A stretch of 64,000 bases of DNA. Origin: a virus. How positions within the stretch are numbered: position 1 is the stretch's first letter; each line of letters starts with the position of its first letter. This document shows positions 16,046-50,132 of the stretch, piece after piece. The notes under the pieces are model-generated. The model was not told the origin of the DNA, made no database searches, and saw only the letters and a program-made list of their open reading frames with translations. Position numbers and translations under genes: made by a program. The stretch spans positions 124,001 to 188,000 of the IMG/VR virus record IMGVR_UViG_3300024262_006558. The stretch is one strand, 5' to 3'.

Positions 16046-16318
16046 GTGAGAAAGAGGTTTTATATATCGCCAAAATCGCCAAGTGTTTACCAAGTTGAAT
16101 TAATAATACAAAAATGGCTTGAGAATCATAGGTATGAAATGTTAAATTTAACTATGCTTACTGAAGCTTTAAATATAGAGCTAAGTTCGGTTTTCATCTG
16201 GGGCAGGTTAGAGATAGATATGCAAATGATGGATGAAAACGGATTTGTAATAGAAGTTACCTTTTTGAATACTAGTACAAAAAAATACGAGAACGTTTTA
16301 ACTAAAATAGAATGGTAA
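16046..16318 (+). CDS. Small baseplate-module protein with MRKRFY start
   Basis: 90 residues from a GTG at 16046; an in-frame stop precedes it by one codon. Body: VYQVELIIQKWLENH and a beta-rich end (VIEVTFLNTSTKKYENVL). No family recognised. The first six residues, MRKRFY, are identical to the tag peptide of the gene at 46115, although the rest of the tag (HAY) is absent. It overlaps the KTSC gene by 7 nt and lies between gp6 and a very large baseplate protein, where T4-like phages carry small wedge proteins. Confidence 0.65.
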   Translation: MRKRFYISPKSPSVYQVELIIQKWLENHRYEMLNLTMLTEALNIELSSVFIWGRLEIDMQMMDENGFVIEVTFLNTSTKKYENVLTKIEW

Positions 16319-45007: not shown

Positions 45008-45868
45008 CTAAAACCAGCCCCATCTTCTTCTTGATCTATTCTTTGTGCGTCTCCATTGCTGAGTTTCTGCAACAGGCTCATCTTCGGGAACTTCTTCAGG
45101 TTCAGAAATCATCTCAGGCTCTTCTTGAACATCTGGCTGCACAGGCTCGACAGGCTCTACAGGCTCTGGATTAATCATATTGACAGGCTCTTGTGGAGTT
45201 GTTTTAGGCGCCTCTGGTGATACTTCTGGATTATCTGGAGTAACATTACTCGCTGGCTCTCCAGGGTTCTCATCTGTTACTGTAGGGGTTTTCTTAGGTA
45301 CTCTTGTAGGTTCTTGACTAAACTGATTCTGATCTTCTCTAGACTCTTCTTCATCTGGAGTAGGAATAGGTTTGTCAGTTAAGTTTGATTGGTAATTTTT
45401 AGCAATGTTTGGTTTGTATGTAGCTTCTACACTTTTGATATCTTTATCATTAGGGTTGTATCCCGTAATGTTATCGCTAAAGAATCTGTCAGTAAACCAC
45501 ATTCCTTTAATTCTATCTGCTCTAAACATTCTCCAGTCGTTTTCAGCTTCAGCGCTTCTAACTCCTGTTTTTTTGGCTGCTTTTTCAGATTGTCCAATAA
45601 CATGTAACCCTCTAACGACTTTATTACCTTTAGAGTTAGTTCCCATAACCACTGGCCTTACAACACGATACTTCTGTACGGGCATTTCTTCGCCTTTATA
45701 AAGAATTCCTATTTCCCTACCTTGCTCAATTGCCTGCTTCATCATATCAGCGCTAAAAGCCACTCTCTCACCACTCTTTGCAAGTAGCTTAGTTTTAGTG
45801 GCCATATCAGCTTCACTGATGATTCCAGCTAGTAATTGTGATCTTTTCTTAAAGGACTCTGATAGCAT
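45008..45868 (-). CDS. WYL-like domain protein with Pro/Glu-rich tail
   Basis: 286 residues. The N-terminus LSESFKKRSQLLAGI resembles short helical leaders of T4-like virion proteins. Residues ~38-145 look WYL-like: MKQAIEQGREIGILYKGEE, QKYRVVRPVVMG, KGNKVVRGLHVIGQS, then DWRMFRADRIKGMWFTDRFF. WYL domains bind nucleic acid or nucleotides and often regulate defence genes. Here there is no HTH; instead there is a ~100-residue Pro/Glu/Val-rich stretch and a basic C-terminus (RRTKNRSRRRWGWF). It lies directly upstream of the tube-like gene and is divergent from the tag-cassette genes. Confidence 0.6.
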   Translation of the reverse strand: MLSESFKKRSQLLAGIISEADMATKTKLLAKSGERVAFSADMMKQAIEQGREIGILYKGEEMPVQKYRVVRPVVMGTNSKGNKVVRGLHVIGQSEKAAKKTGVRSAEAENDWRMFRADRIKGMWFTDRFFSDNITGYNPNDKDIKSVEATYKPNIAKNYQSNLTDKPIPTPDEEESREDQNQFSQEPTRVPKKTPTVTDENPGEPASNVTPDNPEVSPEAPKTTPQEPVNMINPEPVEPVEPVQPDVQEEPEMISEPEEVPEDEPVAETQQWRRTKNRSRRRWGWF

Positions 45869-45923: not shown

Positions 45924-46118
45924 ATGAGAAAGAAGTTTTACCACGCATTTAAAAAACATAAAATAATATTTATGTCACCTGGAATATACACCAGGGAAAT
46001 AGATAGGTCTTTTGTGATGGTGTCAGGAGCAACTAATTCAAATTTTATAGCAGGTATTGATCCAGCCGTTAAGTCTCCAAGAATTGATATGCTAAAGGTT
46101 TTTGGATCAGCATCATGA
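45924..46118 (+). CDS. Tagged fragment: tail sheath N-terminus
   Basis: 64 residues. Tag MRKKFYHAF, then a short basic linker, then MSPGIYTREIDRSFVMVSG, which is the typical N-terminal start of a contractile tail sheath protein (SPGxYxxEIDxS). The frame then ends after about 45 sheath-like residues; a full sheath is several hundred. The linker DNA (A/T-only, with AATATTT before the internal ATG) looks like a former gene-upstream region read through in frame. Stop overlaps the next tag start by ATGA. Possibly a decaying copy, possibly a functional peptide. Confidence 0.55.
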   Translation: MRKKFYHAFKKHKIIFMSPGIYTREIDRSFVMVSGATNSNFIAGIDPAVKSPRIDMLKVFGSAS

Positions 46119-46267
46119 GAAAACGGTTCTATCACGCATATAAAAAGAAAAGTATGGCTCAAAAGTTTTTAGAGCTTAGTAATATTATTCATGAGAGAGC
46201 TGTGAGAGGTTCAGCGAACTTTATAATAACTAGCACGGCTATGGCAAATAAAATAAAAAAAATATGA
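46115..46267 (+). CDS. Tagged fragment: major capsid protein segment
   Basis: 50 residues. Tag MRKRFYHAY, basic linker, then FLELSNIIHERAVRGSANFI followed by ITSTAMANKI. This matches the internal T4 gp23-like capsid segment with pattern RGxGNFIIxSxxVxNxL, but nothing before or after it. The gene starts inside the previous stop (ATGA) and its own stop overlaps the next tag start in the same way. A real capsid protein would be about 400-500 residues and is not in this window. Confidence 0.5.
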   Translation: MRKRFYHAYKKKSMAQKFLELSNIIHERAVRGSANFIITSTAMANKIKKI

Positions 46268-46515
46268 GAAAAAACTTCTACCATTCTTATAACGAATTCA
46301 AATACCCTACTGTAGAATTAGGAGAAACTGTTTTTTCGATAATAGATAACTGCGATTATACCATGACCTACACCATGGATACATGGAGTGATTCATGCTC
46401 AGGTCTAGATAGTGACATATCCAGCATTGAGTACAGGCTTAAGACAGCTGAAGAAACTATCGATAGATTACTTGTCGAGATGAAAGAGATGAAAGATCAA
46501 ATGCAAAAACCATAA
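46264..46515 (+). CDS. Tagged coiled-coil protein
   Basis: 83 residues. Tag MRKNFYHSY, then YPTVELGETVFSIIDNCDYT, an acidic/aromatic middle, and a C-terminal coiled coil (SIEYRLKTAEETIDRLLVEM). I do not recognise the body; it may come from another virion protein. Third unit of the ATGA-linked series. Confidence 0.6.
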   Translation: MRKNFYHSYNEFKYPTVELGETVFSIIDNCDYTMTYTMDTWSDSCSGLDSDISSIEYRLKTAEETIDRLLVEMKEMKDQMQKP

Positions 46516-46557: not shown

Positions 46558-46773
46558 ATGATAGAAACTATGGCGGAGAATGAGAACAAGAACATTCTAG
46601 ATCTTTTGCTCGATATTAAAGAACTAACGGATACAATTCAACCAGATGCAGAAAAAACCCTCAAAGGTAATAAAACGGCTGGCATTAGATTGAGAAAGCA
46701 GATGCAAGAAATAAAAAGACTTTGTCAAGATGTGAGAGACAAAGTTCAAGTTAGTAAAAATGTTACAGCTTAA
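46558..46773 (+). CDS. Small helical protein
   Basis: 71 residues. ENKNILDLLLDIKELTDTI, then KQMQEIKRLCQDVRDKVQ. Helical, charged, no family recognised. Overlaps the stop of the opposite-strand 46770 gene by 4 bases. May start at the internal ATG at residue 4. Confidence 0.65.
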   Translation: MIETMAENENKNILDLLLDIKELTDTIQPDAEKTLKGNKTAGIRLRKQMQEIKRLCQDVRDKVQVSKNVTA

Positions 46774-47174: not shown

Positions 47175-50132
47175 ATGGCTAAGAAAAACAAATATAAAGA
47201 TAGCGTAGTTCATATAAAGAAATTAAAGACAAATTATAGACTAACTTATGATTTTCTCAAATCTCTTACAGAATATATAAAATCATTTCCTAAAGAACAT
47301 TGGTCTATTCACAAAGAGCAGGTCATGGTGGGCGGGGAACTTAAACAGCAATGGTCCAGAGATATATCTGAATTCAAAATGGTTGATGTATTAGCGTTCC
47401 TAGTCGACAACTCAATCCCATTCAAATTTAGTAAATCCATAACAGAAAGAGAATTAAATGTTTTACGTAAAGAATATTTAGATCGACAGAATCGATTGAA
47501 AGATGCGCTTAGGGAGAAGTTAGATGGCATTGACATAAAAGGTATGGATTTCAGCTTTATGAAAATACAGCCTTATGAGTACCAACAACAAGCTGTTCGA
47601 TTCTTTGAGCTTAATGGAGGTATAGGGCTATTAGGGGATGCTCCAGGTGTAGGCAAGGAAATGCCTTTAGACACACCTATCCCCACTCCAGAAGGTTGGA
47701 AAACAATGGGGGATATGACGGTTGGTCAAAAGGTTTTTTCTAGAGATGGTGAAGTTTATAAAGTGAGAGGAGTGTATCCTCAAGGATCTAAAGATGTTTA
47801 TAAAATAACCTTCAATGATGGTAGCTCTACTAAATGTGGTTTAGATCACATTTGGACTGTTAGAGATAAAAATAGAAAGCGCAGAAATAAAGGGTGGACT
47901 ACAAAAACGATAGGTGATCTATTGGATAGCGGTTTAAAATATAACTTAGACGCCTCTAGAAAGTTATCTGGTAGAAAAGCTGCTCTCAAATGGGAGATAC
48001 CCACAACTAAACCAGTAAATTATAATAAGAAAAACTTATCAATAGACCCTTATATTTTAGGAGCTTTGATTGGAGATGGAAGTTTGACGGGATCATGTCC
48101 AGCTGTTTCCATACCAAATTTCCAAAAAGAAATCAAAGAAGAGATGGTTTCTAGATTAGATGAAGGGTATCATATGAGAAAGAATGATTATCCAAATTGC
48201 CCACAATATTACATCTCTCAAAAAGGATGGGGTGGACAAAGCAAAAAAAACAAATATCAACAAGAGGTTCTAAGTTTAAAATTAAACGTAAAATCTAGGG
48301 ATAAATTTATACCAAAAACCTATTTATTGGGATCTATAGATCAAAGAATTGATCTACTGAAAGGATTAATGGATAGTGATGGTAGTTGCGATAAAAATAG
48401 ATCAAATTATCACACTACATCTAAACGTTTGTCAATGGACGTTGTAGAATTAGTTCAGTCGCTAGGAGGCGTTGCAAAAGTTAACATCTATGATAGGTCT
48501 GCTGAAGGGAAGCCGACTGAATACAGAGTTAGGGTTAATGTTAATTTTTGCCCTTTTAATTTATCAGAAAAATCTAAACAGTGGAATCCAATAAAAACTG
48601 TTGAATCTAAATTAATAGAATCAATTGAAAAAGAGGCCTCTGAACAGCAGCAGTGTATTTCCGTAGATTCTCCAGACAACACTTACTTAACTGAAAGTTA
48701 TATTGTGACACACAATACCTGCTCGGCTTTTGCATATGCAGCTAAGCATCAGTATAAAACATTGATAATTTGTCCAGCCTCACTTGCTTTGAACTGGAAA
48801 AATGAAATAGTTAAGTTTACAAATGAAAAGGCTCACGTATACAAATACAAACCCACTAAAAAAAGCGGAAAGGTAAACTACGCAAAAGAAGACTCACTTT
48901 TCCATGTAATAAACTACGAATCACTTGATACCTATTTTAAATTTGAATACTCACATAAGTGTAGTAATTCAAATTGTAAATATGAAGAAGTATCTTTGGT
49001 TAAAAAATTTAAAGAGTGCCCTAGTTGCTTTAGTCCAAAAAGCGTTAAAAGCAGAAAAAAAGAACTTCTTGCTTTCGAAGCTAAAGATGGAAGCTTTATT
49101 AATATAGATGATTATGATTTAGTGGTTCTAGATGAGGCTCACTATATCAAGAACGATCAGGCTGAGAGAACTAAGTTATGCATTAAAGCATTAGGAGATA
49201 TCCCTAGAAAACTATTAGTTACTGGTACAGCAATAAAAAGTAAACCTATTGAGTTTTTCACTCTTGTTAACTTTCTATTCCCTGAGGAGTGGAAGAGTAG
49301 GCATCACTTTGGGGTAAGATATTGTGCTGGACATGAATCCAACTTTGGCTGGGATTATAATGGAGCCTCACATATACATGAGTTGTATGAGAGAATGTCA
49401 CCTTTTACTTTAAGAAGATTGAAGCAAGATGTATTAAGTCACTTGCCTCCAAAGACAAGATGGAATATACCAATTCAACTCACTCCAGCAGAAGCTAGAG
49501 AATACAAGAAAATAGAGCAGGAAACTATTACAATACTTTCCAATGGTGAAGCTATTGAAAAAAATCATCTTACGGTTCTTTTGGATTTAAAAAGCTTTAT
49601 TGCTGATATAAAATTAGATAGAGCCCTATCTCAAGTGCAAGACATTGTTGAAGGTGGTGAGAAAGTTGTTCTTATGTCTGAGTTTAGAAAATCAGCAGAG
49701 GGAGTTAAAGAGCATTTTGGAAAAAGCTGTGTAATGGTTCATGGTGGAGTTAGTAAAGAAGAACGAGATAATGCTGTTCACGCCTTCATGACGGACCCTA
49801 AGATAAAAGTGTTCAGCGGAACTATTATGGCTGCAGGAGTAGGGCTTACATTAACCTCATCTAGCACATTAGGATTTCTAGGATCAGCTTGGACTCCAGC
49901 AGATATGACTCAAGCGGAGGATCGTGTACACAGAGCGTCCACCACCTCAGATAAAGTTCATATTATAAAATGGATTTGTGAAGACACGATCGATGAAGAT
50001 ATTGAAGCCCTCTTAGAAGAGAAAGGGAAAATAGTAAACAAAGCCTTAGATAATACAAGTTCAATTGAAAGCGCTGAGGTTCTAAGTGGAAATATACAAA
50101 ATCAAATAATCGCTAGATTACTGAATGGATAG
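47175..50132 (+). CDS. SNF2-family helicase interrupted by a class 3 intein
   Basis: 985 residues, of which 353 are an intein. The spliced protein (632 residues) has YEYQQQAVRFFELNGGIGLL and Walker A GDAPGVGK, joined by splicing to TCSAFAYA; LIICPASLALNWKNEI (motif Ia), a Cys cluster (CSNSNCKYEE, then ECPSCFSPK) that could bind zinc, LDEAHYIKN (motif II), LVTGTAIKSK (III), LRRLKQDVLSHLPPKTRW, VMVHGGVSKEERDNA, and QAEDRVHRAS (VI). This is the SNF2/SMARCAL1-like layout, so an annealing helicase or fork-remodelling role is likely, as for T4 UvsW. It starts 67 nt from the opposite-strand 46770 gene. Confidence 0.9.
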   Translation: MAKKNKYKDSVVHIKKLKTNYRLTYDFLKSLTEYIKSFPKEHWSIHKEQVMVGGELKQQWSRDISEFKMVDVLAFLVDNSIPFKFSKSITERELNVLRKEYLDRQNRLKDALREKLDGIDIKGMDFSFMKIQPYEYQQQAVRFFELNGGIGLLGDAPGVGKEMPLDTPIPTPEGWKTMGDMTVGQKVFSRDGEVYKVRGVYPQGSKDVYKITFNDGSSTKCGLDHIWTVRDKNRKRRNKGWTTKTIGDLLDSGLKYNLDASRKLSGRKAALKWEIPTTKPVNYNKKNLSIDPYILGALIGDGSLTGSCPAVSIPNFQKEIKEEMVSRLDEGYHMRKNDYPNCPQYYISQKGWGGQSKKNKYQQEVLSLKLNVKSRDKFIPKTYLLGSIDQRIDLLKGLMDSDGSCDKNRSNYHTTSKRLSMDVVELVQSLGGVAKVNIYDRSAEGKPTEYRVRVNVNFCPFNLSEKSKQWNPIKTVESKLIESIEKEASEQQQCISVDSPDNTYLTESYIVTHNTCSAFAYAAKHQYKTLIICPASLALNWKNEIVKFTNEKAHVYKYKPTKKSGKVNYAKEDSLFHVINYESLDTYFKFEYSHKCSNSNCKYEEVSLVKKFKECPSCFSPKSVKSRKKELLAFEAKDGSFINIDDYDLVVLDEAHYIKNDQAERTKLCIKALGDIPRKLLVTGTAIKSKPIEFFTLVNFLFPEEWKSRHHFGVRYCAGHESNFGWDYNGASHIHELYERMSPFTLRRLKQDVLSHLPPKTRWNIPIQLTPAEAREYKKIEQETITILSNGEAIEKNHLTVLLDLKSFIADIKLDRALSQVQDIVEGGEKVVLMSEFRKSAEGVKEHFGKSCVMVHGGVSKEERDNAVHAFMTDPKIKVFSGTIMAAGVGLTLTSSSTLGFLGSAWTPADMTQAEDRVHRASTTSDKVHIIKWICEDTIDEDIEALLEEKGKIVNKALDNTSSIESAEVLSGNIQNQIIARLLNG
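47658..48716 (+). mobile_element. Class 3 intein with LAGLIDADG endonuclease in the helicase Walker A motif
   Basis: 353 residues between GVGK and TCSAF. It begins EMPLDTPIPTPEGW; residue 1 is Glu, not Cys or Ser. Block B GLDHIWTV has the Trp, block F QQCISVDSPDNTYLTE has the Cys, and the end IVTHN has Thr before His-Asn: the W-C-T triad of class 3 inteins. The endonuclease motifs are ILGALIGDGSL and, about 90 residues later, LLKGLMDSDGS. The first C-extein residue is Thr. The site in the catalytic P-loop is typical of inteins and makes excision essential for the helicase. Confidence 0.9.

Follow-up and report, generated by a model that had tools for sequence, protein, structure and literature searches.

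We report that the ORF at 45924-46118 of the window, i.e., the whole 64,000-nucleotide stretch analyzed here (positions 124001-188000 in a virus record 388,594 bases, or 388.6 kb, long), encodes a small protein in which a phage-specific N-terminal tag is fused to the N-terminal arm of a tail sheath. At least 36 small proteins share the tag, this one among them, and the same tag is linked to fragments of other virion proteins of the phage. The protein-coding reality and the origin of these tagged fragment ORFs are well supported. As to what they do, we tentatively favor, at clearly less than even confidence, competitive mimics that disturb the assembly of rival phages.

The record belongs to a T4-like jumbo phage, whose MCP, sheath, and tube genes are listed in Table 1; it is a metagenomic assembly. 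The contig G046 (IMGVR_UViG_3300009149_000011) overlaps the left 53 kb of the record at 99.95-100% identity, and its bases 1-96014 add ~96 kb leftward; provided that both assemblies are correct, the phage genome thus measures 484 kb or more. The host is probably of the Bacteroidetes type, because the best annotated-isolate matches of the full-length own MCP are Flavobacterium phages (34%) and because an Hc1 histone-like gene lies directly 3' of the tagged operon. Two further plus-strand ORFs of the window, judged by eye from their translations, are apparently interrupted by inteins: a helicase at its Walker A motif (47175-50132) and a nucleotide-sugar epimerase-like ORF (76-1608).

Table 1. 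Positions of the tagged ORFs, their parts, and the full-length genes to which they are compared.
Feature	Window	Record	Strand	Evidence or remark
Tagged sheath-fragment ORF, 64 aa, ATG to TGA	45924..46118	169924	+	coding-like codon usage
N-terminal tag MRKKFYHAFKKHK, 13 residues	45924..45962		+	consensus M-R-K-x-F-Y-[HFI]-x-[YP]
Part homologous to the N-terminal arm of the tail sheath (residues 4-33)	45966..46055		+	profile, alignment, tblastn to sheath genes
Second tagged ORF, 50 aa, tag + MCP piece ELSNIIHERAVRGSANFIITS (own MCP about 410-431)	46115..46267		+	HMM E 5e-5, tag-stripped
Third tagged ORF, 83 aa, begins MRKNFYHSYNEFKYP	46264..46515		+	no significant match
Tagged near-full-length tail-tube paralog, 150 aa	44541..44993	168993	-	divergent; phrog_4542 tail tube 5e-8
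Tagged ORF, GTG start, begins MRKRFYISPKSP	16046..16318	140046	+	body without identity
Hc1 histone H1-like protein	46558-46773		+	Pfam PF07432, E 6e-16
Tagged MCP piece		372508		E 5e-7; own MCP about 77-110
Tagged MCP piece, C-terminus		371987		E 3e-5; own MCP about 488-550
Tagged MCP piece		372777		E 1e-4; own MCP about 16-40
Tagged MCP piece, weaker		5669		E 0.003; own MCP about 349-374
Own full-length MCP		99.6-101.3 kb		
Own full-length sheath	outside window	90077-92458 (90.1-92.5 kb)		
Own tail tube		84.1 kb		

The full translation of ORF 45924-46118 is MRKKFYHAFKKHKIIFMSPGIYTREIDRSFVMVSGATNSNFIAGIDPAVKSPRIDMLKVFGSAS, i.e., the tag followed by the body IIFMSPGIYTREIDRSFVMVSGATNSNFIAGIDPAVKSPRIDMLKVFGSAS. 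A sequence-only reading had taken it for a shared tag followed by the 5' end of a sheath gene whose full copy lies outside the window, and had asked for an alignment with the phage's own full sheath. This much of the reading is borne out: the tag recurs in 36 ORFs, the full gene lies elsewhere in the record, and in that alignment own sheath residues 4-46 match the ORF (IFMSPGIYTREID vs VFLSPGVFTREQD), best supported at profile positions 4-33 of 796. The well-aligned piece is short and diverged (~30 residues). When the sheath-family HMM was run against 6,287 six-frame reading frames, the ORF was the best non-self match (E 0.011; next 0.17), and its tag-stripped body reached E 2.6e-5 among the 36 bodies tested. 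In tblastn against 50,697 phage records, 11 of the 13 matches fell on annotated tail-sheath genes, the best with 47% over query 15-44, all E-values being weak (>=0.2). By all four measures the similarity reaches past the short EIDxS motif. What the ORF holds is the N-terminal arm of a T4 gp18-type tail sheath (residues 4-46), without the sheath domains or the conserved C-terminal domain of a full-length protein. Its in-frame codon usage is coding-like: it scores 0.25 bits per codon, compared with 0.34 +/- 0.12 for real genes and -0.10 +/- 0.22 for spurious ORFs.

A coincidental sheath-like stretch might be suspected, as the match of this ORF taken alone is weak, E 0.01 to 0.08 genome-wide. We regard coincidence as extremely unlikely, since the fragment ranks first of the 6,287 frames, its tblastn matches fall on sheath gene starts in phages, and it adjoins tagged tube and MCP pieces; a chance origin is rejected on the genome-wide ranking together with the reversed and shuffled controls described below.

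One part of the sequence-only reading failed, namely that the linker encoded by A/T-only DNA is an intergenic leader captured together with a sheath start and read through. The I-I-F that closes the supposed linker already shows homology to the coding part of sheath genes: related sheaths begin MATIFVSPGVYTREQD, and I-I-F-M of the ORF aligns with these coding residues, its internal Met falling on sheath residue 6 (L/V) and not on the sheath start codon. The similarity therefore begins at residue 4, upstream of the internal ATG, which makes leader and start-codon capture wrong. The tag thus replaces about the first three sheath residues in frame, without leader read-through. Beyond this ORF, the tail tube, the terminase, and several separate MCP pieces are likewise tagged.

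The tag defines the set. In the 388.6-kb record 36 ORFs start with [MVL][RK]K.FY (M-R-K-x-F-Y), with two more in the 96-kb extension; the reversed control pattern matched 0 times on one strand and once on the other. Of all four-residue start combinations in this phage, R-K-F-Y is the most frequent (32 ORFs), whereas in the close 372-kb relative G005 any such combination occurs in at most five ORFs and there is no comparable shared start. The 30 bases upstream of the tag hold at most 0.34 bits of information per base; conservation rises abruptly with the start codon. Codons 2, 3, 5, and 6 are strongly conserved and codon 4 weakly, while third positions fall to about what two-fold codons allow. 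The tag is thus conserved at the protein level from the start codon onward. A DNA-level mobile cassette with a promoter or RBS was considered and rejected, as the upstream region is unconserved and third positions vary as the code permits. Half of the tagged ORFs (18 of 36) start with a 4-nt overlap to the preceding open frame; the stop of the sheath-fragment ORF overlaps the next tagged ORF in this way (ATGA), as does 46115-46267 with 46264-46515. Three IRKxFY copies (record 119161, 306339, and 371776) have ATC or ATT in place of a start codon and sit 5-30 codons after a possible upstream start; they are either near-cognate starts or internal tags.

Two subtypes can be told apart. MRKxFY[HF]AYN is mostly found on virion-derived bodies, and MRKxFYI-x-P occurs chiefly on bodies without identity that form one array (record 223.3-229.7 kb). 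This array (record 223268-229682) consists of ~18 tagged ORFs of 67-153 aa, many with 4-nt overlaps, and their bodies gave no database match. Most tagged ORFs, those of the array included, match no virion protein, and therefore the tag marks more than virion mimicry. Outside this phage, the strict pattern was found nowhere else in IMG/VR, a relaxed scan returned tagged ORFs in this phage's contigs only and none in the other five contigs, and none were found in 84,980 species genomes; eight MRKxFYIxxP matches elsewhere do not form arrays. The tag is confined to one lineage, and the tagged-fragment genes are without close relatives. With a degron reading of the tag in mind, the record was searched for a ClpX/ClpA-type unfoldase or C-terminal domain, and none was found. 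A ClpP-like protease gene was noted by eye near tagged ORFs (record about 339.4-340.2 kb, minus strand).

For body identification, the tags were removed and the bodies were compared with HMMs built from the virion families of this phage and its relatives; as a control, 20 times as many shuffled bodies were run against 30 HMMs and gave a best E of 0.038. In at least seven of the tagged ORFs, the body corresponds to part or all of a morphogenesis protein of the phage itself: sheath, tail tube, the ATPase half of terminase, and, in four to five cases, MCP; this number is a lower bound because HMM recognition favors conserved motifs. Among the 6,287 stop-to-stop frames of genome and extension, the five best non-self MCP matches, the best sheath match, and the best tube match are all tagged, although tagged frames make up about 0.6% of the total. 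The tagged tube, tag-stripped, matches the own tube HMM at E 7e-21, and among PDB structures its AF2 model (pLDDT 71) matches those with tube/Hcp folds; no close source phage for it was found. Upstream of it, 55 bases from the divergent sheath-fragment ORF, lies a 286-aa ORF (45008-45868, minus strand) with a weak WYL match and a Pro/Glu-rich second half. ORF 337373 is the N-terminal ATPase half of a terminase (E 4.5e-6 vs the own full-length terminase), and keeps a deviant Walker A and a Walker B motif as judged from the alignment. It is the only second terminase in the phage, and it is tagged. Searching the PDB by sequence with the sheath piece and the MCP pieces gave nothing useful.

No two of the MCP pieces cover the same part of the protein, and the three clustered near 372 kb follow one another in N-to-C order. 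They are 37-55% identical to the own MCP over the matched cores and in five of five cases slightly closer to own-clade MCPs than to those of the next clade. ORF 46115-46267 (record 170115) has a weak Pfam Gp23 match besides its alignment with the own MCP; it and three to four others are MCP-fragment genes, i.e., short ORFs present beside a full MCP gene. Tagged ORF 372508 holds the conserved N-terminal MCP stretch RRPVSTLLAQELVEVRPMNGPIG, which presumably lies about where the Gol region does.

MCP fragments are not restricted to this phage. A profile search of 36 records detected short extra MCP ORFs in LR756508 (484 kb), LR756511 (595 kb), LR745206 (635 kb), and LR756502 (642 kb), none in RaK2, P-SSM2, immuto, Mel-JY01, RM378, SCTP-2, or Lak-B3, and in T4 only the vertex protein gp24. 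G005, whose MCP is 73% identical to that of this phage and which has no tag, contains two mini-MCPs in which the N-terminal region is retained together with that of the DAEAEL helix. At 16.4-17.3 kb (minus strand) of the same contig, a dCMP deaminase-like ORF is continuous in one frame with an MCP piece (E 7.6e-19). MCP-fragment genes were counted in six huge phages altogether, those outside this phage being untagged; the same MCP regions recur among the fragments, perhaps in part because the most conserved motifs are the easiest to detect. Judged by their neighbors, the LR745206 and LR756502 fragments are orthologs; over 45 codons they have dN 0.215, dS 1.2, and pN/pS 0.31 (0.17-0.57), i.e., this fragment is under purifying selection. 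As for sheath genes, two adjacent ones each are found in G010 (208415-213453) and LR756508 (202550-208417).

These data bear on whether the fragments are leftovers of duplicated or foreign structural genes that keep short open frames by chance. Such an origin would suit bodies that are diverged and partial, but the same protein-level tag is fused in frame every time, 4-nt overlaps recur, the tagged ORFs are intact with coding-like codon usage where a decaying pseudogene loses its coding signature, and an MCP fragment is selected in two other huge phages. We consider degenerating duplicates very unlikely.

The products may alternatively serve the phage's own virion as accessory or regulatory components, recruited by the tag into the particle or its assembly line, with the virion-derived bodies anchoring them or regulating, for example, capsid size or tail length. 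The bodies do derive from particle proteins, tagged gene 94494 sits between the sheath and MCP genes, and MCP-fragment genes recur in huge phages, which need very large heads. Yet 94494 occupies a site of accessory insertions, a ~400-bp gap in three relatives and occupied by other genes in a fourth, and relatives with 60-74% identical virion proteins are without the tag. (A single-sequence structure model of ORF 94494 is poor, pLDDT 36.) T4 internal proteins are unrelated small proteins that share a short N-terminal capsid-targeting sequence, cleaved by the protease at an acidic motif (LxE/IxE type) and used inside the virion. The resemblance lies in unrelated small phage proteins with one common short N-terminal signal; unlike theirs, the tag MRKxFY[HFI]x[YP] is basic and aromatic without any acidic residue, hence without the acidic prohead-protease site, and the bodies are virion-protein pieces. 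On balance a role in the own particle is unlikely.

Another reading is that the fragments imitate virion proteins and occupy bacterial immune sensors without triggering them. MCP, tail tube, and terminase, all represented among the tagged bodies, are known triggers: MCP for CapRel and, as the Gol peptide with EF-Tu, for Lit; the tail tube for DSR2, which responds only to the monomer; and terminase and portal for Avs (PMC9712102, PMC3014915, PMC11087589). The N-terminal MCP stretch of ORF 372508 and the closeness of the MCP pieces to own-clade MCPs also agree with decoys. On the other hand, the sheath is not among the triggers named in these papers, and a trigger fragment can activate rather than block, as Gol does with Lit. 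In T4, Gol is part of full-length gp23 and triggers defense (PMC3014915); ORF 372508 shares with it a homologous short MCP stretch that could act alone, although here the MCP pieces are separate tagged genes. We rate immune decoys as rather unlikely, but a serious alternative.

Competitive mimicry, which we tentatively favor, would have the fragments bind the partners of the full-length proteins. In the intact sheath, the N-terminal arm donates a strand to the sheet between neighboring subunits (E217, PMC10329688); a free arm would occupy this intersubunit strand slot and cap or poison sheath polymerization of co-infecting related phages, and the MCP, tube, and terminase pieces would poison the respective rival assemblies likewise. 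The tag might mark, stabilize, or localize the mimics, or keep them off the phage's own virions. For the sheath piece we prefer interference, since a capping peptide would be expected to look like just such a domainless arm. It retains SPGxxTREID and the following residues of a T4-type sheath (gp18) but, unlike gp18, it is the arm only, MRKxFY-tagged and outside the structural operon. The MCP pieces, nearest to the own clade in all five cases, fit mimics aimed at close relatives. Several points speak against this proposal: the same pieces could harm the phage's own assembly, the sheath piece is short and diverged, most tagged ORFs match no virion protein, and among the phages searched sheath fragments were found in this one only. 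Please note that the present evidence does not separate interference from decoys.

Blocking the assembly of a rival phage is an established strategy. Tab, the tail assembly blocker of the Pseudomonas prophage JBD26, is likewise a small phage protein directed against competitors' virion assembly, but its action goes through the tape measure protein, and it is not described as a virion fragment; the comparison is by description only (PMC10884400). Huge-phage CRISPR spacers target the structural genes of other phages (PMC7162821), and they too are fragments of structural genes that a huge phage carries, perhaps against competitors, whereas the pieces described here are predicted to be translated as tagged proteins. 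It is conceivable, although we hold it doubtful, that huge phages keep a protein-level arsenal of virion pieces acting in trans against rival assembly or host sensors, organized here under one tag; with the same reservation, such an arsenal may be the peptide counterpart of spacer-based inter-phage immunity. No earlier description of tagged virion-fragment genes was found in the literature searched, which is weak evidence as many subscription papers lie outside it.

Should the proposal hold, translated pieces of the most conserved particle proteins would serve phages as weapons or decoys, which would be a conflict system of a kind not described in that literature. The candidate peptides are at hand: the sheath arm, the MCP motifs, the tube, and the terminase ATPase half. 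MCP-fragment genes in six huge phages, with one orthologous pair under selection, make the idea testable beyond one genome. Whatever the function, one protein tag on ~38 small genes in a single phage needs explaining.
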